Position numbers and translations under genes: made by a program. Shown here one piece after another: positions 43,705-59,542 of a stretch of 64,000 bases of DNA (position 1 is the first letter of the stretch; each line of letters starts with the position of its first letter). Under the pieces are notes generated by a model. That model ran no database searches, was not told where the DNA came from, and saw nothing but the letters and a program-made list of their open reading frames with translations. This DNA comes from Stappia sp. WLB 29 (GTDB lineage: Bacteria > Pseudomonadota > Alphaproteobacteria > Rhizobiales > Stappiaceae): assembly GCF_023507705.1 (NCBI RefSeq), contig NZ_JALBGD010000007.1, forward strand, positions 186,001 through 250,000. Direction: 5' to 3'.

Positions 43705-44628
43705 TCAGGCGTCCAGCGTCTCGCAGTCAAGCGTATCCGCAAGCGCTGCGATTGCCTTCGCGCCGGGCGAGGAGGACTGCGCGCCGTTCGCCGTACAGGC
43801 CAGGGCGCCGGCTGCTGTGCCTTCCTGCAGGGCACGTGCGATCTCCGCCCCCCGGTCGAGTGCGGCAGCAAGGGCGCCGACGAAGGCATCGCCCGCACCA
43901 GTGGTATCGACCACGTCGACTTCAGGCGCGGCAACCCGCCAGCGGGTCTTGCCCTTCTGGGCGATCAGCCCGCGCGCGCCCAGGGTGACGACAGCAAGCC
44001 GCTCTTCTCCCGATAGCGCTGCGCAATGCGCCTCCGGCACTGGCGTCTCCCCCGTTCCGAGTGCGGCGGCAAGTTCCGCCGCCTCCACGGAATTGGCGAC
44101 AACGACGTCGACATCCGGCACCAGGCGGGCGAGCTCCGCATCGCCGGATGGCGCGGCGTTCAGCAACACGCGCGCCCCGCACAGCCGCGCGCGGGCGATG
44201 GCATCGGCAATCGGCTCCGGGCTCAACTCGCGCTGGAGCACCAGCAGGTCGCCCCGTGCCAGCCGGCCATCCAGCCAATCCGCAACGACGCGGGCATTGA
44301 CGCCGCTGGCGCACATGATGAGGTTCTCGCCCTTGGCGTCGACGCCGATCATGGCAATGCCGGTGGTCCCGTCGAGATGGCGGACGCCGGAAAGGTTGAC
44401 CCCCGCGCGCTCGAGATTGGCAAGCGCGGCCTCGGCATGAGAGTCGCGGCCGACCGCACCGATCATCCGGACCATCGCCCCAGCACGCGCTGCTGCCAGC
44501 GCCTGGTTGGCGCCCTTGCCGCCGGGAAAGGTCTGGTGGTCGGGGCCGACCACCGTTTCGCCGGGCGCCGGAAGACGCGGCAGGGCGACGACGAGGTCGA
44601 GATTGATGGAGCCGAATACGGTGATCAC
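43705..44628 (-). CDS. rbsK: Ribokinase
   Basis: 307 residues from a GTG at 44628 (VITVFGSINLDLVV). PfkB-family kinase that phosphorylates ribose at O5. Motifs: the first signature FPGGKGANQALAAARAG, the NAAPS segment and the C-terminal VDTTGAGDAFVGALAAAL with the catalytic Asp. Last gene of the nucleoside salvage run, 31 bases after the SDR gene. It would rescue ribose released from nucleosides; deoxyribose is an alternative substrate. Confidence 0.92.
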   Translation of the reverse strand: MITVFGSINLDLVVALPRLPAPGETVVGPDHQTFPGGKGANQALAAARAGAMVRMIGAVGRDSHAEAALANLERAGVNLSGVRHLDGTTGIAMIGVDAKGENLIMCASGVNARVVADWLDGRLARGDLLVLQRELSPEPIADAIARARLCGARVLLNAAPSGDAELARLVPDVDVVVANSVEAAELAAALGTGETPVPEAHCAALSGEERLAVVTLGARGLIAQKGKTRWRVAAPEVDVVDTTGAGDAFVGALAAALDRGAEIARALQEGTAAGALACTANGAQSSSPGAKAIAALADTLDCETLDA

Positions 44629-44659
44629 GGTGCCTGTTCCTGCGGTTCGGCGGACGAGA

Positions 44660-45424
44660 TCAGATCCAGCCGCCGTCGACGATATAGGTCTGGTTGGTGC
44701 ATGCGGCGGCCGCATCCGAGCAGAAGAACAGCACCACGCGGGCGACATCCGCCGGCACCAGCTTCCGCTTGAGGCATTGCCGCTCCATGATCTCGCGCTC
44801 GCCGGCCTCGTCGAGCCACAGGGCGATCTGGCGCTCGGTCATGATCCACCCCGGAGCGATACAGTTGACGCGAATGTTGTCCGGACCAAGGTCGCGGGCG
44901 AGCGAGCGCGTCAGGCCGACGACGGCGGACTTGGCCGCCGTGTAGCCGGCCATGCCGCCCTGCCCGATCATCCAGGAGATCGACCCCATGTTGACAATGG
45001 CACCGCCCCCGAGCGCGCGCATGTCGCCCACCACCGCCTGGGTGCAGAAGAACTGGTGCTTGAGGTTCACCGCCATGCGGCTGTCCCAGTATTCGGGCGT
45101 CACCTCTTCCAGCCGGTGACGCTCGTCATGGGCGGCGTTGTTGACCAGGATCGAAACGGGGCCCAGCACCTCGCGCAAATCGGCGATTGCTGCACGGGTC
45201 GCCTCGATATCCGTGAGATCGGCACGGGCGAAACGGACGGCCGCGCCACCGCTCTCCAATTCCGCAACAAGACGGCGGGAAGGCTCCTCACTAAGGTCGA
45301 TGAAACCGACCAAAGCCCCTTGCGCGGCAAACTGGCGGACGATCTCAGCACCGATTCCGCCACCCCCACCGGTGACCAGGACCGTGCGGCCCTCCAGGTC
45401 CGGATAGATCGCCTGGGCTGTCAT
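44660..45424 (-). CDS. SDR-family dehydrogenase in the nucleoside salvage locus
   Basis: 254 residues from MTAQAIYPDLEG. Classical short-chain dehydrogenase: cofactor motif VTGGGGGIGAE with an Asp (FIDLSEE) at the end of strand 2, which favours NAD, then LVNNAA, the catalytic Ser in NMGSISW, and YTAAK. The closing NQTYIVDGGWI resembles sugar and sugar-acid dehydrogenases. Between upp and rbsK, it may oxidise a (deoxy)ribose product; the substrate is inferred from context only. Confidence 0.88.
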   Translation of the reverse strand: MTAQAIYPDLEGRTVLVTGGGGGIGAEIVRQFAAQGALVGFIDLSEEPSRRLVAELESGGAAVRFARADLTDIEATRAAIADLREVLGPVSILVNNAAHDERHRLEEVTPEYWDSRMAVNLKHQFFCTQAVVGDMRALGGGAIVNMGSISWMIGQGGMAGYTAAKSAVVGLTRSLARDLGPDNIRVNCIAPGWIMTERQIALWLDEAGEREIMERQCLKRKLVPADVARVVLFFCSDAAAACTNQTYIVDGGWI

Positions 45425-45471
45425 GTCGCTCCTCCCGCCCTTCACGCCACCGGCGCCGCAGGGATGCGGCC

Positions 45472-46101
45472 TTACTTCGTGCCGTACATGCGGTCGCCGG
45501 CATCGCCGAGACCGGGCACGATATAGCCCTTCTCGTTCAGCCGCTCGTCGATGGCGGCGGTGAAGATCGGCACATCCGGATGGGCGGCGTTGAATTTGGC
45601 GATGCCTTCGGGCGCGGCTAGAAGGCAGAGGAAACGCAGCTGGGTGGCGCCGCGTTCCTTCAACCGCTGAACGGCGGCAATCGCCGAGTTGGCCGTTGCC
45701 AGCATGGGATCGACGACGATCACGAGGCGCTCGGCGAGATCTTCCGGCGCCTTGAAATAATATTCGACCGGCTGCAGCGTCTTGGGGTCGCGGTACAGGC
45801 CGATATGGGCGACGCGGGCGGCCGGAACCAGCTCCAGCATGCCCTCCAGCAGTCCGTTGCCGGCGCGCAGGACCGAGGCGAAGACCAGCTTCTTGCCCTC
45901 GATGATCGGCGCGGACATGGTCTGCAGCGGGGTTTCGATCTCGACGGTGGTGATCGGCAGGTCGCGGGTCACCTCATAGGTGAGCAGCACGGAAATTTCC
46001 CGCAGGAGCCTGCGGAAACCCTGGGTCGAGGTCTCCTTCATCCGCATGTGCGTCAGCTTGTGCTGCACCATCGGGTGATCGACTACGGTTGCTCCGGTCA
46101 T
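45472..46101 (-). CDS. upp: Uracil phosphoribosyltransferase
   Basis: 209 residues from [20 protein letters not shown]. It makes UMP from uracil and PRPP. The PRPP loop reads [11 protein letters not shown] rather than the commoner DPMLATGGS; the uracil-binding end [17 protein letters not shown] is intact. The ATG at 46101 follows AGGCGAG; 24 upstream in-frame residues are not family-like. A 139-base gap separates it from add, so it may also have its own promoter. Confidence 0.95.
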
Positions 46102-46240
46102 CTCGCGCCTCTCCGCTCGCTCTGTCTGGAGGCCACCGCCTCCTGAAGCCCCAGCCGGCTTCCTTCCTGTCATAGATCAACCGGCGAACAAGCGGAACAG
46201 GTGCAGCGCAGCTCTCGCCCTCCCGTCCACCGACTTCCCC

Positions 46241-47263
46241 TCAGACCTCGCCGCCGCGCAGCGCCGCGTGGTCCGACAGGCGGACGGCGAGCCGGCGCCG
46301 TGTATCCTCGTCGCAGAAGGCGGCGGCGATGGCATTGCGGGTGATCGCCAGAAGCTCGTCTTCCGGCCAGCCGAAGGTCTCGGCACAGCTGCGATATTCA
46401 TGACCGAGCGTCGTGCCGAAGAAAGGCGGATCGTCGGAATTGAGCGTGATGCGGCAGCCGGCGCGGCGCAGCAGGTTCACCGGATGAAAGCGCAGGTTGG
46501 AGTAGAACCCGAGCGCCAGATTGGAGCCGGGGCAGACTTCCAGCACGATGCCTTCTTCCGCGATACGCGCGACCACCGCCCGGTCCTCGATGGCCCGCAC
46601 GCCGTGGCCGATGCGCCGGACGCGCAGGAAGTCGAGCGCGGCCGTGACGCTTTCGGGGCCGCAGACCTCGCCCGCATGGGCGGTCAGGCCGAGCCCCGCC
46701 TCTCCGGCGGCACGGAAGGCTCTCGCGAAGTTCGCCGGATGGCCCTCGCGCTCGTCGCCGGCAAGGCCGAAGCCGGTGACCAGCGGATGCGGAGCGGCGA
46801 TGACCTGCGCCACAACCTGCTCGACCGCACGAGCCCCGAAATGCCGTACGCCGACGGCGATCATGCGCGCTTCGATGCCGGTATCGGCGCGGGCCTGCTC
46901 GATGCCGGCGGCAAGACCGGCGACATAGTCGCGATAGGACAGGCCGGCGCCGGCGGCATGATCGGGCGAGATCGTCAGTTCGGCATAGATCGCCCCTTCC
47001 GCGGCCAGCATGCGCAGGTAGGTGCCGGAAAGCAGCGCGTAGTCCTCGGGCGTCCGGAAGATCCGGCTCGCCCGGTCATAGGCCGCGAGGAATTCGGAGA
47101 AGTCGTTCCAGAGATAGCGGCCGCGTTCGTCGAAGAGGCCTTCGACATCCTGACCTTGGCGCTTGGCAAGGCGCCGCACGAGATCGGCCGGCGCCGCCCC
47201 CTCGACATGCACATGCAGTTCCGCCTTGGGAAGCGTTGCCCGCGTGCTGGCGCTTGCCGGCAT
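46241..47263 (-). CDS. add: Adenosine deaminase
   Basis: 340 residues. Zinc enzyme converting (deoxy)adenosine to (deoxy)inosine. Metal and active-site motifs: KAELHVHVEGA (HxH), LTAHAGEVCGPES, RIGHGVRAIED and TLNSDDPPFFGTTL. An adenine deaminase activity of the related subfamily cannot be ruled out, but the purine nucleoside phosphorylase in the same locus favours the nucleoside. It starts 3 bases after the dioxygenase stop. Confidence 0.92.
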   Translation of the reverse strand: MPASASTRATLPKAELHVHVEGAAPADLVRRLAKRQGQDVEGLFDERGRYLWNDFSEFLAAYDRASRIFRTPEDYALLSGTYLRMLAAEGAIYAELTISPDHAAGAGLSYRDYVAGLAAGIEQARADTGIEARMIAVGVRHFGARAVEQVVAQVIAAPHPLVTGFGLAGDEREGHPANFARAFRAAGEAGLGLTAHAGEVCGPESVTAALDFLRVRRIGHGVRAIEDRAVVARIAEEGIVLEVCPGSNLALGFYSNLRFHPVNLLRRAGCRITLNSDDPPFFGTTLGHEYRSCAETFGWPEDELLAITRNAIAAAFCDEDTRRRLAVRLSDHAALRGGEV

Positions 47264-47266
47264 GCG

Positions 47267-48130
47267 TCAGAACCCGCGCATCGGGTTTTCCGGTGCGCGC
47301 ACCAGCCAGTTGTCCGGCGACCAGCGGGCGGTCCCGTCGACCAGATGCAACGCATAGGCATGGCGCGAGCGCGGCGAGCGGTTCGGCGCCGAGCGATGCG
47401 GCACCAGGCCGTGCAGCACCACCAGAGTTCCCTTGGGTGCGACCAGCGGCACGTCGCCAGACAGCGGCGTGTCGTCCAGCGGCTCCATCACCAGTGCTTC
47501 GCCATCATAGTGGAAGCGCTGGCGCAGCGGCGCCAGATGCCCGCCCGGCCCGCCGAGCAGGCCGCCATTGGTCTCGTCCGCATCTTCCAGTGCAAACCAG
47601 AAGCCGGTGCAGGACAGCGGCTCGGTGTGCAGGAAGGTTGAATCCTGGTGGCAATTGACCTCTCCGCCGATCTCCGGCGGCTTGAAGATATACATGGACT
47701 GGGCCAGCAGCGGTGCGGCGAGGCCAAGGCTCTTCGCCGTGCGCGCCAGCCGGGGGTCGCGCGAGAAGCGCTCGAACACCGGATCGAGATCGTGCAGCGC
47801 GTGGCCGACCTTGTTGAGCGCCATATGCTTGTCGCGCTGCAGCCGGCCGTCCTCGTCGAACGCCTCCTCCTCGAAGAAGAAGCGGATCTTGTCGCCGCTC
47901 TCGCGGAAATAGCGGTCGCGGGCATGGCTCTGGGCGCCGGTCTCGAAGACGGAGGCATGCTCGTCCGGATCGAAGGCGTCGATCAGTTCGGCCATGCGGG
48001 CCTTCAGCGCATCGCAGTCCTCCGCCGGCTTGTAGCCGGTCAACACGAGGAAGCCGTCCTGCGCGTAGGCTTCCTGCATCTCCGGCGTCAGAACGCCGTC
48101 CCTCGGTGCGGAAAACGACCGTGCGGTCAT
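47267..48130 (-). CDS. PHYHD1-like Fe(II)/2-oxoglutarate dioxygenase (phytanoyl-CoA dioxygenase family)
   Basis: 287 residues. The iron facial triad is visible: His161 and Asp163 in NCHQDSTFLHTEPL, and His245 in LHGLVPHRSAPN; Arg256 in SPRSRHAYALH should bind 2-oxoglutarate. The HQDSTFL-TEP block and the HRS-N-S-RSR-AY end resemble animal PHYHD1 as I remember it, an enzyme without an agreed substrate, more than true phytanoyl-CoA hydroxylases. It is sandwiched between deoB (67 bases) and add (3 bases) in a nucleoside salvage operon, suggesting a nucleoside- or deoxyribose-derived substrate. That is inference. Confidence 0.88.
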   Translation of the reverse strand: MTARSFSAPRDGVLTPEMQEAYAQDGFLVLTGYKPAEDCDALKARMAELIDAFDPDEHASVFETGAQSHARDRYFRESGDKIRFFFEEEAFDEDGRLQRDKHMALNKVGHALHDLDPVFERFSRDPRLARTAKSLGLAAPLLAQSMYIFKPPEIGGEVNCHQDSTFLHTEPLSCTGFWFALEDADETNGGLLGGPGGHLAPLRQRFHYDGEALVMEPLDDTPLSGDVPLVAPKGTLVVLHGLVPHRSAPNRSPRSRHAYALHLVDGTARWSPDNWLVRAPENPMRGF

Positions 48131-48197: not shown

Positions 48198-49418
48198 TCA
48201 GAGGAAGGAGGTCCCGTGGTTTCCCGGCGCCAGCCCCAGATGAGCCGCGATGCTCTCGCCGATATCGGCGAACGTGTCGCGAATGCCGATATCCTTCGGA
48301 TCGCTCCCCTTGAGAAGGCCGATCACCGGCACCCGCTCGCGAGTGTGGTCGGTGCCGCGCCAGGTCGGATCGCAGCCGTGGTCGGCCGTCAGGATCAGCA
48401 GGTCGCCCGGCCGCAGCCGATCCAGCAGTTCCGGCAAACGGCGATCCAGCGCCTCGAGGGCGGCTGCATAGCCCGGCACGTCGCGGCGGTGACCATAAAG
48501 GCTGTCGAAGTCGATATAGTTGGCGAAGATCAGATCTCCCTCGCCGGCTTTGTCCATCGCCTCCAGCGTGCGGTCGAACAGCGCGTCGTTGCCGGCCGCC
48601 TTCAGCACCTCCGACACGCCCTGATGGGCGAAGATGTCGGAGATCTTGCCGACGGTCAGCGTCCTGCGCCCTGCGGCAACGGCACGGTCCAGCAAGGTCG
48701 GCTCCGGCGGCAGCACCGAATAGTCGCGCCGGTTGGCGGTGCGCTCGAAGCCGGACGCGGCATCGCCGACGAAGGGCCGCGCGATCACCCGGCCGATATT
48801 GTAGGGATCGACCAGGCGGCGCACGGTCTCGCAGAGCCGGTAGAGCCGCTCAAGGCCGAAATGCTCCTCATGCGCGGCGATCTGGAAGACGGAATCAGCG
48901 CTGGTGTAACAGATCGGCTTGCCGGTCCGCACATGCTCCTCGCCGAGTTCGGCGATGATCACCGTTCCGGAGGCGTGCATGTCGCCGAGGATGCCGGGCA
49001 GGCCCGCCTCGCGGATGATCGCCTGCGTCAGCTCGGCCGGGAAGGTCGGCACCGTGTCCGGAAAATAGCCCCAGTCGAAGGCGACTGGCACACCGGCGAT
49101 CTCCCAGTGGCCGGACGGCGTGTCCTTGCCCCGAGAGGTCTCGCTCGCGGCGCCGAAGATGCCGATCGGTCCGGCGGATCCGTCCATGCCCTCCGGCACC
49201 TTGCCGGTCGCAAGCTGTGCCGCGCGGGCAAGGCCGAGCGCCGTCAAGTTGGGCAGGGCCAGCGGACCGGAGCGCAAGCCCTCGCGGTCGCCCTCGCCCC
49301 GCATGCAGGCGCTCGCGATATGGCCGAGCGTGTCGGAGCCCTCGTCGCTGAAGCGGGCGGCATCCGGCGCTCCGCCAATACCGAAACTGTCCAAGACGCA
49401 CAGGATCGCGCGTGCCAT
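48198..49418 (-). CDS. deoB: Phosphopentomutase
   Basis: 406 residues, alkaline phosphatase superfamily with two manganese ions. Interconverts (deoxy)ribose 1-phosphate and 5-phosphate, linking the phosphorylases to DeoC and the pentose phosphate pathway. Motifs: [12 protein letters not shown] at the N-terminus, the phospho-accepting Thr in [24 protein letters not shown] and [21 protein letters not shown]. Full length. Confidence 0.95.
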
Positions 49419-49502: not shown

Positions 49503-50825
<1,323 letters not shown>

Positions 50826-50829
50826 GCGG

Positions 50830-51606
50830 TCAATATCCCTTGGCGGTGGTCGGCGCGCGCCCGTCGAGCGCGGCAAGCAGGGCATCGAGCAGGCCGCTCG
50901 CGCCGAAGCGGAAGTGCGAAGCCGCAACCCAGTTGGCCCCGAGAATGCGGTCGGCAATCGCGAGATAGGCCGCCGCATCCTCCACGGTGCGGATGCCGCC
51001 GGCCGGCTTGAAGCCGATTTCCGGGCCGCCCTCGCGGCGGATCTCCTCGATGACGGCGAGCATGATCTCCGCCGCCTCCAGCGTGGCGTTGACCTTTACC
51101 TTGCCGGTCGAGGTCTTGATGAAGTCGGCACCGGCCGAAATCGCCATCAGCGACGCCGCGTGAATGAGCAGCGGGTCGCCGATCTCGCCGGTCTCCAGGA
51201 TGACCTTCAGCAGCCGGTCGCCGCAGGCCTCGCGCACCTTACGGATCTGGGTCTCGGCAAAACCGCGCCGGCCGTCCAGAAAGGCGCGGTAAGGCATGAC
51301 GAGGTCGATCTCGTCGGCACCGTCGGCAATTGCCTGGCGGGTCTCGGCAATCACGGCCAGCGTATCGTCGCCGCCTTGCGGGAAGTTGACCACGGTCGCA
51401 ATGCGAACGCCGGAGCCGGCGAGCAGGCTTGCGGCCTGGACAATGAAGCGCGGCCAGATGCAGACCGCCGCGACGGGGCCATGGGGCGTGACCGCGCGGG
51501 CGCAGAGCGTATCGATGTCGGCGGTGGTGCAGGTCTCGTCCAGATTGGTCAGGTCGACCAGCGGCAGAGCGCGCTGCGCCACCTCGGCAGGTGTCATGTC
51601 AGGCAT
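50830..51606 (-). CDS. deoC: Deoxyribose-phosphate aldolase
   Basis: 258 residues from [11 protein letters not shown] (ATG 51606; a TTG at 51612 is possible). It splits deoxyribose 5-phosphate into glyceraldehyde 3-phosphate and acetaldehyde. The Schiff-base Lys is in [11 protein letters not shown], the second Lys in [10 protein letters not shown] and the Asp in [10 protein letters not shown]. Its start overlaps the purine phosphorylase stop by 8 bases. No acetaldehyde dehydrogenase is visible in the locus. Confidence 0.95.
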
Positions 51607-52411
51607 TTCCAAGATCCTTGACGAAGCGGCGGATCAGCCGCTTCAGCGCGTCGACGGCCATCAGTGCCGTCGACTTGGTTTCCTCGTGCGACAAGCCGTG
51701 CGCCTGCAGGCCGGCGCCATAGTTGGTGATGGTGGAGATCGCGGCAACGCGCAGGCCGAGATAGCGGGCGAGGATCACTTCCGGCACCGTCGACATGCCG
51801 ACCGCGTCCGCGCCCAAGAGCTTTGCCATGCGGATTTCCGCCGGCGTCTCGAACGAGGGGCCGGAGAACCACATGTAGACGCCTTCGCCGAGCGCGATCT
51901 CCTCTTCCGCTGCGAGCGCCTTGAGACGCGCGCGAAGGTCGGGATCGTAGGCGGCGCTCATGTCGAGAAAGCGGCGGTCGCTTTCCTCGCCGATCAAGGG
52001 ATTGAGGCCGGACCAGTTGATGTGGTCGCTGATCAGCATCGGCGTGCCCGGCGCGAACTCTTCGCGCAGGGACCCAGCCGCATTGGTCAGCAGCAGCGTG
52101 TCGCAGCCGAGCGCCTTCAGCGTCTCCAGCGGCGTGCGCATGACATCGGCGCCGCCGCCCTCATAGTAGTGGGCGCGGCCGGACAGGACGACCACCGGCA
52201 CATCGCCGAGGCGACCGGCGACGAGTTCGCTGCCATGCGAGGAGACCGAGGAGACGGGAAAGCCCGTCAGCTTGGAATAGGGAATGCGCACGGCATCCTC
52301 GACCTCGTCGGCCAGTTGGCCGAGGCCCGAGCCCAGCACCATTCCGACGCGGTAATCGCCGGGTCTTGCGGCGCGGACCATCTCCGCGCATTCCGGCCCG
52401 TAGCCGCTCAT
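51599..52411 (-). CDS. Purine-nucleoside phosphorylase, trimeric class
   Basis: 270 residues (punA/deoD-2 type). Phosphorolysis of inosine and guanosine and their deoxy forms. Motifs: MVLGSGLGQLAD, the phosphate-binding GRAHYYEGG, LTNAAGSL, the purine-site Glu in FSGPSFETPAEIR, VGMSTVPEV, and the Asn in TITNYGAG, which favours 6-oxopurines. The start overlaps the cdd stop by 4 bases and its end overlaps deoC, a tightly coupled unit. Confidence 0.94.
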   Translation of the reverse strand: MSGYGPECAEMVRAARPGDYRVGMVLGSGLGQLADEVEDAVRIPYSKLTGFPVSSVSSHGSELVAGRLGDVPVVVLSGRAHYYEGGGADVMRTPLETLKALGCDTLLLTNAAGSLREEFAPGTPMLISDHINWSGLNPLIGEESDRRFLDMSAAYDPDLRARLKALAAEEEIALGEGVYMWFSGPSFETPAEIRMAKLLGADAVGMSTVPEVILARYLGLRVAAISTITNYGAGLQAHGLSHEETKSTALMAVDALKRLIRRFVKDLGNA

Positions 52412-52818
52412 ATGTCCCTCTCCTCGTCATGGAGAACGAACCGGGCCGGCAGCAGTTCCGTCATGGTCAGCGTGCGGCGCAGGCCGGTGTCGTCGCAGAT
52501 GTGAACCGGCACATCGTCGCCGGCGAATTCGGCAAGTCTCTGGCGGCAACCGCCGCAGGGGGTGCACAGAGCCGCCTTTGCGGTCACCAGTACCTCGACC
52601 ACATCGCCCGGCCGGCCGCCAGCGGACACCATGGCGCCCAGCGCACTGGTCTCGGCACACCAGCCTTCCGGAAAGCTTGCATTTTCAACGTTGCAGCCGG
52701 CGAAGATACGCCCGTCGCGGGTGGCGAGGGCAGCGCCGACGCGAAAGCCTGAGTATTTCGCATGCGCATTCTCGCGGGCCGCACTGGCGGCGGCAAACAA
52801 CTCGTCGAAACGGCTCAT
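52408..52818 (-). CDS. cdd: Cytidine deaminase
   Basis: 136 residues from MSRFDELFAAAS. Zinc enzyme giving uridine or deoxyuridine. YSGFRVGAALATRDG, the catalytic CNVENASFPEGWCAETSA and the zinc pair PCGGCRQRLAEF are intact; homotetrameric short form. It follows the permease by 22 bases. Confidence 0.95.
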   Translation of the reverse strand: MSRFDELFAAASAARENAHAKYSGFRVGAALATRDGRIFAGCNVENASFPEGWCAETSALGAMVSAGGRPGDVVEVLVTAKAALCTPCGGCRQRLAEFAGDDVPVHICDDTGLRRTLTMTELLPARFVLHDEERDI

Positions 52819-52840
52819 GTCGTCCTCGTTGCCGGTGCGC

Positions 52841-53809
52841 TCAGCTGCGTTCCTTGACATAGGCGGTGCCGCCGGCGCGCGGCGGGACCGCCTTGCCGAT
52901 GAACCCGGCAAGCAGCACCACAGTCAGGATATAGGGAAGGGCCTGGATCGCCTGCACCGGAACCTCGCCGATGCCCGGCACCTGTTGGCCCTGCAGGCGG
53001 ATCGCCACCGCATCGAGGAACCCGAAGAGCAGGCAGGCGAACATCACCGGCACCGGCTTCCACTTGGCGAAGATCAGCGCTGCGAGAGCGATGAAGCCCT
53101 TGCCGGCCGTCATGTTGGCGATGAAGCTCGCCGACTGGCCGATGGACAGATAGGTGCCGGCAAAGCCGCACAGGATGCCCGTGCAGATCACCGCGCGATA
53201 GCGCAGCCAGGTAACCGAGATGCCCGCCGTATCGACCGCGCCGGGATTCTCGCCCACAGCGCGCAGGCGCAAGCCGAACCGGGTGCGATACAGCACCCAC
53301 CAGGAAAAGGGCACGGCAAGGAAGGCGGCGTAGACGAGGATGTTGTGGCCGGACAGGAGTTCCGAATAGAGCCCGCCGATCACCGGGACATCACGCAGTT
53401 CCGCGGCGAAGGGCCATGTGACATCGCCGAAGCGGGCGTCTCCCGTTACCGACGGCGTGCGTCCGCCCTGGCCGAACCAGGCCTGACCGAGCAGCGCCGT
53501 CAGGCCCATTGCCAGGAAGTTGATGGCGACGCCGGAGACGATCTGGTTGCCGCGATTGGTGATGCAGGCAAAGCCGTGCACCAGCGCCAGCGCCACCGAG
53601 ACGAGAATCCCGGCGCCAAGTCCGGTCCAGGCAGACCCGCTGAGCGCTGCCGCCGTGCCGGCAGCAAAGGCCGCGCCCAGCATCTTGCCTTCCAGTCCGA
53701 TGTCGAAAATGCCCGAACGCTCGGAATAAAGCCCGGCAAGGGCCGCCAGCAGCAGCGGCGTGGATAGGCGTGCGGTGCTGTCGAGCACGAAGATCAGGGT
53801 TTCGAACAT
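52841..53809 (-). CDS. ABC transporter permease, nucleoside type (second permease)
   Basis: 322 residues from MFETLIFVLD, with eight to nine hydrophobic segments. BPD_transp_2 family: SERSGIFDIGLEGKMLGAA, IVSGVAINFLAMGLTALLG and RFGLRLRAVGENPGAVDTAG (the cytoplasmic loop contacting the ATPase). With the adjacent permease it forms a heterodimer. This arrangement with BMP binding proteins is known for nucleoside importers (Bmp-NupABC type). Confidence 0.92.
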   Translation of the reverse strand: MFETLIFVLDSTARLSTPLLLAALAGLYSERSGIFDIGLEGKMLGAAFAAGTAAALSGSAWTGLGAGILVSVALALVHGFACITNRGNQIVSGVAINFLAMGLTALLGQAWFGQGGRTPSVTGDARFGDVTWPFAAELRDVPVIGGLYSELLSGHNILVYAAFLAVPFSWWVLYRTRFGLRLRAVGENPGAVDTAGISVTWLRYRAVICTGILCGFAGTYLSIGQSASFIANMTAGKGFIALAALIFAKWKPVPVMFACLLFGFLDAVAIRLQGQQVPGIGEVPVQAIQALPYILTVVLLAGFIGKAVPPRAGGTAYVKERS

Positions 53810-53822
53810 CTCTCCCCTCCCC

Positions 53823-54929
53823 TCACGCGGCCGGAGCCGGCCGGGCGGCCAGCACCCCGAAGATTCGCAGCAGCGCCGGGCGGAACATGTGCTCCAGCGC
53901 ACCGGCGAACAGGATCACCAGCCCCTGGATGACGACAATCATGTCACGGGTGATCGTCGGCATCTCGAAGGCCAGTTCCGCACCGCCCTGGTAGAGCATG
54001 CCGAACAGGACTGCGGCGAAGACGATACCGACCGGATGCGCACGCCCCATCAGCGCGACCGCGATGCCGACGAAGCCGTAGCCGGACACGAACTCGATCA
54101 GCAGCCGGTGCTGCGAACCCATGATCTCGTTGATCGCCATCATGCCCGCAAGGCCGCCGGACATCAGCATGGTGACGACCGTGATGCGCAACGGCGAAAT
54201 GCCGGCATAAACGGCGGCGACGGGATTGGCGCCGAAGGTGCGGATCTCGTAACCGAGCCGGGTGCGCCAGACGACGATCCACACCAGAAGGCAGGCGGCG
54301 AGCGCCAGCAGGAAGGAGAAATTCACCGGCGCGGATCCGAAATCGGTGCCGGGCAGCACATCCTGGAGCAGCGGCAGGCGGCCGCCGCTCTCGAAGGTTC
54401 GGGTTTCCGGCTGCATCGACCCGCGCTTCGACAGGAGGTTGACCAGCAGGTAGACCATCAGCGAGGCGGCGATGAAGTTGAACATGATCGTGGTGATCAC
54501 GACGTGGCTGCCGCGCTTGGCCTGCAGGATCGCCGGAATGAAGGCCCAGGCCGCGCCGAAGGCGGCCGCGCCCAGCACCGCGAAGGGCAGCGTCACCCAC
54601 CAGGGCACGTAGCGGTCGAGTGCCAGACAGGCGAGCGCAACGCCGAGACCGCCGAGATACGCCTGCCCCTCGCCGCCGATGTTGAAGAGGCCGGCGTGGA
54701 AGGCGATGGCCACCGCAAGGCCGGTGAAGATGAAGTTGGTCGCGTAGAACAGGGTGAAGCCGATGCCCTCGTTCCTGCCGAGAGAGCCCCAGACCAGGAC
54801 CTTGACCGCCTCGACCGGGTTCTCGCCGATCAGGAGCACCACCAGGCCCGAGACCAGAAAAGCGGCCGCGACATTGAGCGCCGGCATCAGTCCGTAGTCG
54901 ACCCAGCGCGGAAGCTGTCCCGCCGTCAT
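53823..54929 (-). CDS. ABC transporter permease, nucleoside type (first permease)
   Basis: 368 residues with about ten hydrophobic segments. IAFHAGLFNIGGEGQAYLGG, VVITTIMFNFIAASLMVYLL and YEIRTFGANPVAAVYAGI are typical of the larger partner in BMP-linked nucleoside importers. Start overlaps the ATPase stop by 4 bases; the second permease begins 13 bases after its stop. Confidence 0.92.
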   Translation of the reverse strand: MTAGQLPRWVDYGLMPALNVAAAFLVSGLVVLLIGENPVEAVKVLVWGSLGRNEGIGFTLFYATNFIFTGLAVAIAFHAGLFNIGGEGQAYLGGLGVALACLALDRYVPWWVTLPFAVLGAAAFGAAWAFIPAILQAKRGSHVVITTIMFNFIAASLMVYLLVNLLSKRGSMQPETRTFESGGRLPLLQDVLPGTDFGSAPVNFSFLLALAACLLVWIVVWRTRLGYEIRTFGANPVAAVYAGISPLRITVVTMLMSGGLAGMMAINEIMGSQHRLLIEFVSGYGFVGIAVALMGRAHPVGIVFAAVLFGMLYQGGAELAFEMPTITRDMIVVIQGLVILFAGALEHMFRPALLRIFGVLAARPAPAA

Positions 54930-56464
54930 TCTGCCGCCTCCTGTCCGCTGGCGCCCGCCATCAGCAGGCCCAACTCGCTTTCCGCCGTTTCCGGCGCGCG
55001 CTCTCCGACCACCTGGCCGTCGAACATGACGAGCACCCGGTCGGCTAGCGCCCGGATCTCGTCGAGCTCCACCGAGACCAGCAGGACGCCCTTGCCCGCG
55101 TCGCGCAGGGCGACGATACGCTTGTGAATGAACTCGATGGCGCCGATGTCGACACCGCGCGTCGGCTGGCCGACGAGCAGGATGACCGGATCGCGCTCGA
55201 TCTCGCGCGCCAGCACGATCTTCTGCTGGTTGCCGCCGGAGAAATTGGCGGTCTTCAGCATGCAGTCGGCCGGGCGGATGTCGTATTTCTCGATCTCCGT
55301 TTTCGCGGCGTTGCGAATGCGGTCGAAATCGAGGAAGGGGCCGCGCCCATAGGTAGGGTCGCGGTGATAGCCGAGAATGGCGTTCTCGCATTCGGGAAAG
55401 CGCGTCACCAGCCCCATGCGATGGCGATCTTCGGGCACATGCGCGAGCCCGAGCCCGCGCATGGCGGCAGGGTCGGTTCCGGCGCGCGCAAGATCCACCC
55501 GCGTCCCGTCGACCGTGACGATGCCCGACGTCACCGCACGGATGCCGGCGATCGCTTCCAGCAGCTCGGACTGGCCGTTGCCGGAAACGCCGGCAATGCC
55601 GACGATCTCGCCGGCCCGCACCTCCAGCGAGACGTTGCGCACGACATCGACGCCGCGCGTATCGCGCACTGTCAGGTTCTCCACCGTCAGCACCGGACGC
55701 CCGGGCTGGGGCGGTCCCTTCTCGACTTCCAGCAGGACACGGCGGCCGACCATCAGCTCGGCAAGCTCGCCCATCGAGGTCTTGGAAGTCTGGCGGGTGG
55801 CGACGATCTCGCCGCGCCGCATGACGGAGACCTCGTCCGTCACCGCCATGATCTCGCGCAGCTTGTGGGTGATCAGCAGCACTGTCTTTCCCTCGTCGCG
55901 CAGCACGCGAAGGATGCGGAAGAGGTGATCGGCCTCCGCCGGGGTCAGGACGCCGGTCGGCTCGTCCAGGATCAGGATGTCGGCGCTGCGGAACAGCGCC
56001 TTGAGAATTTCCACCCGCTGCTGCAAGCCGACGGGAAGGTCCTCGATCAGCGCGTCTGGGTCGACCTTGAGATCATAGTCAGCAGCAAGGCGCTTCAGCT
56101 CGGCCCGCGCCCTGGACACGCCGCCGGCAAGCAGCGCGCCGCCCTCGGCGCCGAGAATGACATTCTCCAGAACGGTGAAGTTCTCCACCAGCATGAAGTG
56201 CTGGTGGACCATACCGATACCCAGCGCGATTGCCGCCTGGCTGGAGGGAATGGATACAGGCTTGCCGTCGACGCGGATCTCGCCGGAATCCGCATGATAG
56301 AAGCCGTAGAGAATCGACATCAGCGTCGACTTTCCGGCGCCGTTCTCGCCGACGATCCCGTGGATCGAGCCTTTGCGGACCTTCAGATGGATGTCCTTGT
56401 TGGCGTGCACCTGTCCGAAGCGCTTGTCGACGCCAACGAGTTCGATGGCAAGCTGGTCGCTCAC
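54926..56464 (-). CDS. Nucleoside ABC transporter ATP-binding protein (two domains)
   Basis: 512 residues from a GTG at 56464 that overlaps the upstream stop. Two ABC domains in tandem. The first is complete: GENGAGKSTLMS, signature-like LPVGLQQRVEIL, Walker B ILILDEPTGVLTPAE. The second is degenerate: GVSGNGQSEL replaces Walker A and LLVGQPTRGVD replaces Walker B, with signature FSGGNQQKIVLAREI. This asymmetry is usual for RbsA/NupO-type importers. Confidence 0.93.
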   Translation of the reverse strand: MSDQLAIELVGVDKRFGQVHANKDIHLKVRKGSIHGIVGENGAGKSTLMSILYGFYHADSGEIRVDGKPVSIPSSQAAIALGIGMVHQHFMLVENFTVLENVILGAEGGALLAGGVSRARAELKRLAADYDLKVDPDALIEDLPVGLQQRVEILKALFRSADILILDEPTGVLTPAEADHLFRILRVLRDEGKTVLLITHKLREIMAVTDEVSVMRRGEIVATRQTSKTSMGELAELMVGRRVLLEVEKGPPQPGRPVLTVENLTVRDTRGVDVVRNVSLEVRAGEIVGIAGVSGNGQSELLEAIAGIRAVTSGIVTVDGTRVDLARAGTDPAAMRGLGLAHVPEDRHRMGLVTRFPECENAILGYHRDPTYGRGPFLDFDRIRNAAKTEIEKYDIRPADCMLKTANFSGGNQQKIVLAREIERDPVILLVGQPTRGVDIGAIEFIHKRIVALRDAGKGVLLVSVELDEIRALADRVLVMFDGQVVGERAPETAESELGLLMAGASGQEAAE

Positions 56465-57456
56465 AGCGGGCACTCCCCGTCGCTGGCCGCGTCGTGCACG
56501 ATGATCGTGCCGTCGGCGATCCTGGCGGCTGCCTCGCCGGCCGCCGCCTCCATCTGCGCGGTGACGAGCGCGCGGTTGTTGTCGTCGATCACCCAGTCCA
56601 TACCGCCCTCCGCAAGGCCCAGCACCTCGATGCCGGCACTCCACGTGCCCGCCTGCGCATCGGCAAAATTGCGGTAGACGGCGACATCCACGCGCTTGCG
56701 GATCGAGGTGAGGATGCGGCCCGGGTGGAGGCCGTTCTGGTTGCTGTCGGTGCCGATGCCGAGGACGCCGGCATCGGCCACGGCCTGGAGGACCCCGATG
56801 CCGGTGCCCCCGGCCGCCTGAATGATCACATCGGCGCCGCGATTGATCTGGCCGCGCGCAAGCTCAGCGCCGCGGGCTGGATCGGCAAAGGCCGCCGGCG
56901 TATCGCCGGTCATGTTGAACAGGACGCGGGTGCCGGGAGAAACGGATGCCGCCCCCTGCCGGTAGCCGCAGAGAAACCGGCGGATGATCGGGATGTCCAT
57001 GCCGCCGACAAAACCGATGGTCCCGGTTTTCGACGCCATCGCCGCCAGCAGGCCGGCGATATATGAGCCTTCATGCTCGCGGAAGACGACCGAGCGCACA
57101 TTGGGAGCCTCGACCATCATGTCGACGATGGAGAAATTCGTCTGCGGGAAGTCCCTTGCCGCGGCCGCGACGGCAGCAGCCTGATTGTAGCCGATAGCAA
57201 CGACCGGCTCCGCGCCGCGCGCAGCAAAGCCGCGCAACGCCTGCAGGCTGTCGGCATCGCGAGCGATCTCGAAATCCCGATAGGGTTCCCCGGTCTCGGA
57301 AGCGAACCGCTCGGCGCCGCGAAAGGCAGCCTCGTTGAACGAACCGTCGAACTTGCCGCCGACGGAATAGACCAGGGCCGGTTCACCCATGGCGGGTGTC
57401 GCGACAAGGCCTGCCGCAAGGGCGAGAATCGCAACGGTTTTCAGGATAGACGTCAT
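56461..57456 (-). CDS. BMP-family nucleoside-binding protein (second paralogue)
   Basis: 331 residues from ATG 57456 (a GTG lies at 57459). Signal peptide ends near ATPAMG. BMP/PnrA-type periplasmic binding protein: GGKFDGSFNEAAFRGAERF, VFREHEGSYIAGLLAAMAS, IGFVGGMDIPIIRRF and GIGTDSNQNGLHPGRIL. Only two cysteines, Cys163 (FLCGYRQG) and Cys329 near the C-terminus, both shared with its neighbour, so a disulfide is likely. More divergent and less Lys-rich than the first copy. Its stop overlaps the ATPase start. Confidence 0.93.
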   Translation of the reverse strand: MTSILKTVAILALAAGLVATPAMGEPALVYSVGGKFDGSFNEAAFRGAERFASETGEPYRDFEIARDADSLQALRGFAARGAEPVVAIGYNQAAAVAAAARDFPQTNFSIVDMMVEAPNVRSVVFREHEGSYIAGLLAAMASKTGTIGFVGGMDIPIIRRFLCGYRQGAASVSPGTRVLFNMTGDTPAAFADPARGAELARGQINRGADVIIQAAGGTGIGVLQAVADAGVLGIGTDSNQNGLHPGRILTSIRKRVDVAVYRNFADAQAGTWSAGIEVLGLAEGGMDWVIDDNNRALVTAQMEAAAGEAAARIADGTIIVHDAASDGECPL

Positions 57457-57535
57457 CACCGCTGTTCCGCGTCGCTCGCCCCGCCGCGCGAGGCAGCGCG
57501 CGCTGCGGACGAAGCCCGCAGCGCGCCTTCTCCCG

Positions 57536-58534
57536 TCAGAACGGGCAGCTCTCGGTCGCCATGTAGTCGTGGACGGCGATCTTGCCGGAAATGATGTCGG
57601 CCTTGGCCTGGTCGACTGCAGACTTCATCTCCTCGGTGATCAGCGCCTTGTTGTTGTCGTCGAGCGCCCAGTCGACACCGCCCTCGGCAAGGCCGAGCGA
57701 GTAGATGCCCGAGGTCCATTTGCCGTCCTTGGCATCGGTGAAGGCCTTCTCGACCGCAACGTCGACGCGCTTCAGCATCGAGGTCAGCACCTTGCCCGGA
57801 TGCAGGGCGTTCTGGTTGCTGTCGACGCCGATGCCGAGCTTGCCCGCGTCCGCGGCGGCCTGCAGGACGCCGAGGCCGGTGGCACCGGCGGCGTGATAGA
57901 TCACGTCCGCACCGCGGTCGATCTGCGACTTGGCGAGTTCGCCGCCCTTGACCGGATCGTTGAAGGCAGCGCCCGTCGAACCGGTCATGTTCTCGAAGAT
58001 CTCGGCGTCGGCCTTGGTCTCCTTGACGCCCTGCTTGTAGCCGCAGGCGAACTTGCGGATCAGCTGGATGTCCATGCCGCCGACGAAGCCGACCTTGCCG
58101 CTTTCCGAAGCCATCGCGGCCAGCTTGCCGACGATGTAGGAGCCCTCATGCTCCTTGAAGAGGATCGAGCGGACGTTCGGCAGGTCGACCACCATGTCGA
58201 CGATGGCGAAGCTGGTGTCCGGGAACTCCTTGGCGACCTTCTCCAGCGCGTTGGCATGCAGGAAGCCGATGGCAATCACCGGATTGGCGCCGCGGCGGGC
58301 GAAGTTGCGCAGCGCCTGCTCGCGCTGGCTGTCGTTCTGGATCTCGAAATCGCGATAGTCGATGCCGGTCTCGGCCTTGAACTTCTCGGCGCCGATGAAG
58401 GCAGCCTCGTTGAAGGACTTGTCGTTCTTGCCGCCCAGATCATAAACGACCGCCGGCTGGATTTCCTGAGCCAGCGCCGTTCCGGCGAGCAAGACCGCCG
58501 CGGCCGCCCCGAGGATCACGCTTTTCATCACCAT
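57536..58534 (-). CDS. BMP-family nucleoside-binding protein (first paralogue)
   Basis: 332 residues, ATG at 58534 after GGAGGTAAG, the best ribosome site in the operon, fitting high expression of a binding protein. Signal peptide ends near TALAQ. PnrA/BMP motifs: YDLGGKNDKSFNEAAFIGAE, LFKEHEGSYIVGKLAAMAS, VGFVGGMDIQLIRKF and GIGVDSNQNALHPGKVL. Cys164 and Cys330 are its only cysteines. Clear tandem paralogue of the next gene. Confidence 0.94.
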   Translation of the reverse strand: MVMKSVILGAAAAVLLAGTALAQEIQPAVVYDLGGKNDKSFNEAAFIGAEKFKAETGIDYRDFEIQNDSQREQALRNFARRGANPVIAIGFLHANALEKVAKEFPDTSFAIVDMVVDLPNVRSILFKEHEGSYIVGKLAAMASESGKVGFVGGMDIQLIRKFACGYKQGVKETKADAEIFENMTGSTGAAFNDPVKGGELAKSQIDRGADVIYHAAGATGLGVLQAAADAGKLGIGVDSNQNALHPGKVLTSMLKRVDVAVEKAFTDAKDGKWTSGIYSLGLAEGGVDWALDDNNKALITEEMKSAVDQAKADIISGKIAVHDYMATESCPF

Positions 58535-58564: not shown

Positions 58565-59542
58565 TCATGCCGAGCGGGCTTGTCTGGTTCCTTCCGCGAC
58601 GGCCAGGGCCCGGCCCAGGCTTTCGTCGACGATCAGGTCCGTGATCAGCCCCGCGCGCAGCGCCGCGCGCGTGGCCTCAAGCTTGCCGAGCCCGCCGGCG
58701 AGCGCGACGATGCGCGCGCCGCGAACGGCCTCGAAGGGCAGCCCGACCGCCTTGTCGCCGAGCTTGGCCGGCACAAGGCGCCCGTCGCGGCCGATGAAAC
58801 GCCCCATCAAGTCGCAGACCGCGCCGGTCGCGATCAGGTCGCGCTGCTCCTCGCGCAGGATCAGGTCGCGGCTGATCAGGTGCCCGTCATCCTCCACCGA
58901 GCCGATGCCGATGACGAAGAGATCGGAGGCGCGCGCACGCTCCAGCAGCGCCTGGACACTGCGCTGGCCAAGGAACGTGTCGCGCTCGGCGACGCTTTCG
59001 GCGAGATACGGCACGGGCAGATAATAGCCTTCGCCGCCCGTGCGCTCAGCCAGTTGCTGGACCACGTCGAACGGGTTGGCGGAGAGCTTTCGCGTCAGCG
59101 AGCCGGAAATCGAGACGATGCTGAGATCCGGGCGCTGGATGCGCGGCATCATCTCCACCGCCGCCTTGAGCGTGCGCCCCATGCCGACGCCGAGCTGGAC
59201 GAGCGAGGGATTGGAAAGCAGACTAGCGAGATGGGGGCCGGCCACCTCGGCGATGGCCCGGATCGCCGACGCATCGTCGCCTCCGCCGATATCGGGCGCG
59301 ATCAGGCAGGAGGACAGGCCATGGGCATCCACCAACGCCGCCTCAATCTCCAGGCAGTCGGAGGGACGATCGGCGATCTGGAAGCGGACGAGACCGGTCT
59401 TCTGGGCATGGGCGATAAGCCGATGCACGCGGGCCGTCGAGATGCCGAGGCGCGTTGCGATCTCGCCCTGCGTCGCGCCGCCGACGAAGGACATCCACGC
59501 GGCGCGGATCGCCATGTCTGTTGTCCAGTCGCCTGCCTGCAT
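58565..59542 (-). CDS. SorC-family (DeoR-like sugar-binding) transcriptional regulator
   Basis: 325 residues. An N-terminal helix-turn-helix (ATQGEIATRLGISTARVHRL) joins a C-terminal sugar-phosphate sensing domain: QLGVGMGRTLKAAVEMM, SISGSLTRKL, LFVIGIGSVEDDG and ALAGGLGKLEATRAAL. SorC-family DeoR of Bacillus responds to deoxyribose 5-phosphate; the same signal is plausible because deoC, deoB and deoA are in the locus. First gene of the nucleoside locus, behind two operator-like repeats at 59633-59665. Confidence 0.9.
   Translation of the reverse strand: MQAGDWTTDMAIRAAWMSFVGGATQGEIATRLGISTARVHRLIAHAQKTGLVRFQIADRPSDCLEIEAALVDAHGLSSCLIAPDIGGGDDASAIRAIAEVAGPHLASLLSNPSLVQLGVGMGRTLKAAVEMMPRIQRPDLSIVSISGSLTRKLSANPFDVVQQLAERTGGEGYYLPVPYLAESVAERDTFLGQRSVQALLERARASDLFVIGIGSVEDDGHLISRDLILREEQRDLIATGAVCDLMGRFIGRDGRLVPAKLGDKAVGLPFEAVRGARIVALAGGLGKLEATRAALRAGLITDLIVDESLGRALAVAEGTRQARSA

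Follow-up and report, generated by a model that had tools for sequence, protein, structure and literature searches.

Why should a gene of the phytanoyl-CoA dioxygenase family (PhyH, PF05721) lie within a run of nucleoside salvage genes? The question is raised by a 64,000-nucleotide stretch of the marine bacterium Stappia sp. WLB 29 (Alphaproteobacteria; contig NZ_JALBGD010000007.1, positions 186,001 to 250,000), called here the window, in which an open reading frame on the minus strand (47267..48130, 287 amino acids, ATG start) sits between the phosphopentomutase gene deoB and the adenosine deaminase gene add. A plausible ribosome-binding site reads upstream of its start (...CTGGAGACGCGC-ATG), and the spacings are 67 bases to deoB (deoB end 48198) and 3 bases to add (add start 47263). 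The protein matches the PhyH profile over positions 1-213 of 213 (E 1.8e-37, 130.2 bits, cut-off 22) and has its iron triad and 2-oxoglutarate-binding arginine at H161, D163, H245 and R256; an earlier note on this DNA had given these four residues and both spacings correctly. Its product is a PHYHD1-type Fe(II)/2-oxoglutarate oxygenase and, as we think with good confidence, a 2'-O-methylnucleoside demethylase that would serve the salvage enzymes encoded beside it. The basis here is clade, fold, pocket residues and gene linkage; the reaction itself has been demonstrated in relatives (PMC12709175).

The earlier note took the substrate of PHYHD1 to be unsettled. Stonkus and co-workers (Nucleic Acids Res. 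2025, PMC12709175) report that human PHYHD1 demethylates free 2'-O-methyl nucleosides using 2-oxoglutarate, and that the activity is shared by animal, fungal, plant and viral relatives as well as by the bacterial PhyH proteins FJS and those of Sphingomonas, Acidisoma and Poribacteria; for FJS, cytidine and formaldehyde were demonstrated as products. Free 2'-O-methyl nucleosides are raised in zebrafish without the PHYHD1 gene (PMC12709175), and rare human PHYHD1 variants associate with higher urinary 2'-O-methylcytidine (P 5.4e-31, PMC7878905). Biochemistry and human genetics together therefore make the statement out of date. FJS and human PHYHD1 took neither nucleotides nor 3'-O-modified nucleosides as substrates, and the authors' tests showed no demethylation of methylated RNA (PMC12709175). 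The suggestion that such a system would let cells use oxidised nucleosides found nothing in its support, since the substrates of the characterised enzymes are 2'-O-methyl ribonucleosides, nucleotides not being accepted (PMC12709175).

We examined whether the window protein carries the features of this enzyme type. Docking in the human protein places K102, H105, Q139 and W277 at the ribose, F161 against the base and S154 at purines (PMC12709175). The four ribose contacts correspond to K107, H110, Q144 and W275 of the window protein, and among 120 PHYHD1-type relatives they are almost invariant (120, 119, 120 and 118 of 120, respectively), as are the catalytic residues (His161 and Asp163 in 120 of 120, His245 in 117, Arg256 in 118). 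Sixteen other PhyH proteins of related genomes all keep the iron and 2-oxoglutarate residues, whereas the ribose positions are matched in only 1, 1, 2 and 5 of them; these 16 were left after five other PhyH rows had been dropped for giving no alignment (L002, L178, L182, L188 and L190), and the PHYHD1-type L167 was skipped as too short. Because the four ribose contacts are common in the 120 relatives and rare in the 16 others, they mark the PHYHD1 clade and not PhyH proteins generally. The base-stacking Phe161 corresponds to F166, a phenylalanine that is not specific to the clade, being found in 10 of the 16 as well.

Fold and phylogeny point the same way. The predicted model of the window protein is closest in fold to 3OBZ/2OPW, the structures of human PHYHD1. 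In a quick tree of 97 rows, from which one of the 16 other PhyH proteins (L175) was omitted as a near-copy, the window protein and human PHYHD1 fall in one clade apart from other PhyH proteins (SH-aLRT 99; FastTree 0.911), which bears out the likeness to PHYHD1 proposed in the earlier note. The tree program warns of long branches, including that of human PHYHD1 (1.77), whose precise position within the clade is therefore uncertain. The closest named relative among the loci that we collected from exact peptide matches is Stappia indica (96% identity). Against the ectoine hydroxylase model (TIGR02408) the protein scores 19.4 bits, far under the NCBIfam cut-off of 336.5.

If the gene belongs to nucleoside salvage, it should keep that company in other genomes. 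In 101 genomes, the window's own included, a PHYHD1-type gene was found in 37, each time no more than 41 bp from deoB or add (distances here are between alignment ends). By comparison, none of 45 other PhyH-like hits, from 18 of the 101 genomes, lies within 20 kb of either gene; only 1 of the 45 is on the same contig as deoB or add, many contigs being short, and only these two genes were checked. Chance adjacency is rejected by the contrast between 37 of 37 and 0 of 45, and a general effect of PhyH genes by the latter count. Fifteen weaker add rows (at most 57% identity, short or paralogous) were kept outside the 101-genome count; inspected by eye, none lies on a contig of the 45 hits and none adds a deoB-add neighbour pair. 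Four flanks of other PhyH hits (L193-L196) match none of the nucleoside enzyme references and have weak ABC-ATPase or SDR (short-chain dehydrogenase/reductase) matches only. One of the 37 genes (G027:C2:39401-40298) is broken, carrying an in-frame stop or a frameshift; the add and deoB matches of that genome are also incomplete, through decay or sequencing error. In one Stappiaceae genome a gene of 335 amino acids (L199:5346-6353), whose product presumably resembles a proline racemase family member, stands between deoB and the oxygenase gene.

The same genomes show how the gene is fitted into the operon. deoB and add are neighbours (less than 3 kb apart) in 66 of the 101 genomes, 35 with the oxygenase gene and 31 without it; where it is missing the gap between deoB and add is -1 to 192 bp, and one such genome (G001, locus L197) has the operon in the same order. 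Within this family the oxygenase gene thus behaves as an optional cassette with a single location, and the operon also exists without it.

Beyond the family, orthologues at E ≤1e-30 were found in 38 of 385 Alphaproteobacteria searched, including the window's own. Of the 37 others, 20 adjoin nucleoside genes, spread over 11 of 23 families by family codes, so that linkage in relatives, which the earlier note had proposed to look for, is present near and far. The layouts differ: deoB-gene-add, deoB-gene, deoA-gene-add, deoA-gene, the gene upstream of bmp, the gene and bmp in divergent orientation (L158), and a gene-add-upp block directed at the deoB end of the remaining genes (L164). Counting matches of at least 33% identity (add at any identity), the partners in the 20 linked loci are permeases and ATPase (19), BMP protein (18), cdd (18) and pnp (17), less frequently deoA (15), deoB (11), add (9) and deoC (6). 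Import and nucleoside breakdown are the core of the linked loci, and the deoxyribose-specific aldolase DeoC is outside it; the steadiness of the former and the infrequency of the latter favour ribonucleosides from outside the cell as the source of substrate. The adjacency to add or deoB, whose conservation had been in question, is common without being a universal core. On the 97-row tree the linked state changes 8 times, and at least 3 changes are forced by well-supported branches; three changes are compatible with one gain and two losses, gain and loss not being separable. Judged from the differing layouts, the link is likely to have arisen more than once.

A second set of 69 loci, collected from exact peptide matches, leans towards close relatives and overlaps the 37 alphaproteobacterial flanks (L132 is L016, for example); 21 of the 69 are linked to nucleoside genes, not counting L026, where deoC and cdd are at least 7.7 kb away on the opposite strand. 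Neighbours in many loci were named by tblastn and Pfam, and those of unlinked loci were scanned with Pfam for chosen proteins only. In all seven Pelagibius-type loci tabulated the next gene encodes a 5'-nucleotidase. At L160:9842-10786 a nucleoside hydrolase of the inosine-uridine type starts 1 bp after the PHYHD1-type gene, and this pair is possibly a two-gene 2'-O-methyl nucleoside module. Three loci are from Acidimicrobiia, in another phylum: in L033 and L040 the gene lies loosely between cdd (6.0 and 2.1 kb away, respectively) and add (1.2 and 1.5 kb), with a MarC gene intervening; L040 also has a methyltransferase gene on the opposite strand ahead of add. L041 is unlinked. The add of L033 rests on a 26% tblastn match, and the one open reading frame tried there had no Pfam match. 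Only 2 of 72,556 plasmid records matched, one of them at 48% identity on an Azospirillum plasmid.

In the window itself the locus reads, in order of transcription on the minus strand, regulator, two BMP proteins, ABC ATPase, two permeases, cdd, pnp, deoC, deoA, deoB, oxygenase, add, upp, SDR and a ribokinase-like gene. The importer parts and the regulator were named by Pfam, and the seven salvage enzymes by curated NCBIfam cut-offs. At the head is a regulator with a sugar-binding domain (58565..59542, PF04198), which we take to be of the SorC type, followed by two BMP/PnrA-like substrate-binding proteins (57536..58534 and, the second copy, 56461..57459; PF02608), an importer ATPase with two ABC domains (54926..56644, start uncertain; two stretches of PF00005) and two permeases, probably for nucleosides (53823..55391, start uncertain, and 52841..53902; PF02653). 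The tandem BMP/PnrA-like proteins thus precede a single ABC importer and may bind different nucleosides. Next come cdd, cytidine deaminase (52408..52911; TIGR01354, 141.4 bits against a cut-off of 113.65); pnp, purine-nucleoside phosphorylase (51599..52411; TIGR01698 and NF006054, both over cut-off); deoC, deoxyribose-phosphate aldolase (50830..51612; TIGR00126, 222.9 against 117.3); deoA, thymidine phosphorylase (49503..50978; TIGR02643, 671.8 against 570.7 over residues 52-487, the true start probably lying further in); and deoB (48198..49418; NF003766, 541.4 against 256). After the oxygenase gene are add (46241..47263; NF006848, 436.9 against 426), upp, uracil phosphoribosyltransferase (45472..46173; TIGR01091, 269.2 against 208.35), the SDR (44660-45445; 341.7 bits to a D-xylose 1-dehydrogenase model whose cut-off is 400) and a ribokinase-like PfkB sugar kinase (43705..44748; TIGR02152, 251.3 bits, under its cut-off of 299.65), all on the minus strand. 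The SDR has no match in L005-L007, though the neighbours there are kept. A second PhyH-family gene of this genome lies outside the window (G000:C32:135577-136194, locus L002), with a weak SDR match nearby.

These genes suggest a pathway. Nucleosides from decaying RNA, 2'-O-methyl ones included, would enter by the BMP/ABC importer, as its family indicates. The oxygenase, judging from its clade, fold and pocket residues, would hydroxylate the 2'-O-methyl group with the help of Fe(II), O2 and 2-oxoglutarate, yielding formaldehyde and the plain nucleoside. The freed nucleoside could then pass to Add, Cdd, Pnp and DeoA/Upp, and its sugar phosphate to DeoB. The formaldehyde released could go to the class III formaldehyde dehydrogenase encoded at another place in the genome (630.7 bits against a cut-off of 543.95).

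Several observations weigh against so simple an account. Some of the PhyH-family proteins assayed were inactive, and one acted on 2'-O-methylguanosine only (PMC12709175). The purine-contacting Ser154 of the human enzyme is N159 in the window protein; the position varies within the clade (N, V, G, T and S all occur), and from the aligned sequences we regard it as a specificity detail and not as family-defining. A helix specific to PHYHD1, close to the mouth of the cavity (human Q56-L71), is shortened, the aligned segment being about 4 residues shorter; in the predicted model this region has two short helices (67-71 and 73-76) and is poorly predicted (pLDDT <50 at 66-68). Human PHYHD1 groups in the 97-row tree with 18 bacterial rows, all unlinked to nucleoside genes, so that the operon-linked enzymes are not the closest relatives of the characterised one. 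The oxygenase gene is also dispensable to the operon, because it is missing in the 31 deoB-add genomes noted above. Among the 37 wider alphaproteobacterial orthologues, 17 (16 if L160 is counted as linked) have no nucleoside neighbour in the stretch fetched, though five of these (L140, L142, L145, L148 and L167) come from short contigs or lie close to the end of one, and at L150 one side is only 3.8 kb long. Other genera show different neighbours altogether: the Kordiimonas gene mostly adjoins an RmuC gene, some Niveispirillum-type loci are near aroC, and in 14 of 14 Marinomonas loci (L051, L055, L057, L059-L066 and L068-L070) the gene is beside a birA-like gene. The 14 Marinomonas loci, whose neighbours were named by Pfam in L060 and by clusters in the remainder, gave no match to the nucleoside enzyme references; in most of them a SPOR-domain gene and coaX, for type III pantothenate kinase, are present as well, and an alpha/beta hydrolase is frequently encoded upstream. 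The orthologues of these three genera may be the same enzyme without operon partners, or may have another role.

The alternative that survives best accepts the chemistry and changes its purpose: the enzyme would mainly detoxify 2'-O-methyl nucleosides and would not serve to obtain carbon or bases. Such nucleosides could block salvage enzymes or, once phosphorylated, interfere with RNA synthesis. Interference of 2'-O-methyl nucleosides with salvage enzymes and polymerases was raised as a hypothesis by Stonkus and co-workers (PMC12709175), and a protective role would suit a gene that is optional among deoB-add genomes and has some orthologues outside any nucleoside locus seen. Against it, importer genes adjoin in 19 of the 20 linked loci, which argues for uptake and use, and genomes with the same importer operon, such as that of L197, live without the gene. 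We consider detoxification unlikely as the main purpose, and infer that the role is feeding.

It is quite improbable that the enzyme removes or oxidises some other group of the nucleoside, such as a base N-methyl or a different alkyl ether, with 2'-O-methyl as a side activity. The presence of add in 9 of the 20 linked loci would suit methylated adenosines, and the characterised enzymes tolerate many base changes and accept 2'-O-allyl; yet N6,2'-O-dimethyladenosine is converted to N6-methyladenosine, losing only its 2'-O-methyl group, and 3'-O-methyluridine is left untouched by the tested enzymes (PMC12709175). The conserved ribose contacts of the window protein likewise speak for the ribose methyl. 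The earlier note had thought of a nucleoside or modified deoxynucleoside, or of deoxyribose phosphates; a modified nucleoside is indeed likely, and the deoxy compounds are not supported. Hydroxylation of unmodified deoxynucleosides, like that by the Neurospora nucleoside 2'-hydroxylase, or action on deoxyribose phosphates would fit deoA and deoB as neighbours, but deoC, the deoxyribose-specific step, is in only 6 of the 20 loci against 19 for the importer, 18 for cdd and 17 for pnp, and the tested human member of the clade is a 2'-O-methyl demethylase (PMC12709175); we think this very improbable. A phytanoyl-CoA type acyl hydroxylase, or another small-molecule hydroxylase of the PhyH family present in the operon by accident, has the Pfam family name in its favour and can hardly be right.

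With 2'-O-methylnucleoside demethylation as the preferred reading, we lean on balance towards a broader proposal: that bacteria own dedicated salvage operons for ribose-methylated nucleosides, in varied layouts and with the demethylase behind a BMP-type importer, that marine Alphaproteobacteria feed by this route, and that the animal enzyme may descend from such a bacterial gene. The last point follows from the branching of human PHYHD1 inside the bacterial clade, among rows without nucleoside neighbours. If the proposal is true, marine Alphaproteobacteria and perhaps some Acidimicrobiia feed on 2'-O-methyl nucleosides that come from rRNA and tRNA of their neighbours, dead or living. The enzyme activity is already known. 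We did not find a PHYHD1-type salvage operon, its bacterial gene context or such a nucleoside flux in the open-access PMC literature, preprints being outside it, and in PMC12709175 the word "operon" is used once, of the E. coli pyr operon, and the string "neighbo" does not occur. Gene context provides independent evidence, from bacteria, for the 2'-O-methyl nucleoside assignment, names the importer and a 5'-nucleotidase as likely upstream steps and Cdd, Pnp, Add and DeoA/DeoB as likely downstream ones, indicates culturable bacteria in which the pathway is testable, and suggests that the whole bacterial clade deserves a better name than "phytanoyl-CoA dioxygenase".

Among known systems, human PHYH (phytanoyl-CoA 2-hydroxylase) has the core fold and, going by the name, the family PF05721 in common with the window protein, but it matches the window protein weakly and is inactive on 2'-O-methyl nucleosides (PMC12709175). 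Human PHYHD1 (isoform A; PDB 2OPW/3OBZ) is a 2'-O-methyl nucleoside demethylase, from which the window protein differs in being bacterial and encoded within an operon for the uptake and breakdown of nucleosides, in having Asn159 for Ser154, and in the shorter segment at human 56-71. FJS, which is metagenomic, and the Sphingomonas, Acidisoma and Poribacteria enzymes are likewise bacterial members of the PhyH family with presumably the same reaction; bacterial demethylases have Tyr at the Phe161 position (PMC12709175), whereas the window protein has Phe166 with all four ribose contacts and therefore looks like the animal type. Among the enzymes tested in the available part of that paper we noticed no such animal-type (Phe) enzyme from a bacterium. 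A further bacterial pair, the 2'-O-methyluridine hydrolase RK9NH and the aldolase RK9DPA from a soil metagenome, has also been proposed for the degradation of 2'-O-methylated nucleosides; RK9NH is a nucleoside hydrolase and cleaves the glycosidic bond (PMC6278475), whereas the oxygenase of the window would remove the methyl group. L160, where a PHYHD1-type gene has a nucleoside hydrolase gene next to it, may be compared with RK9NH.
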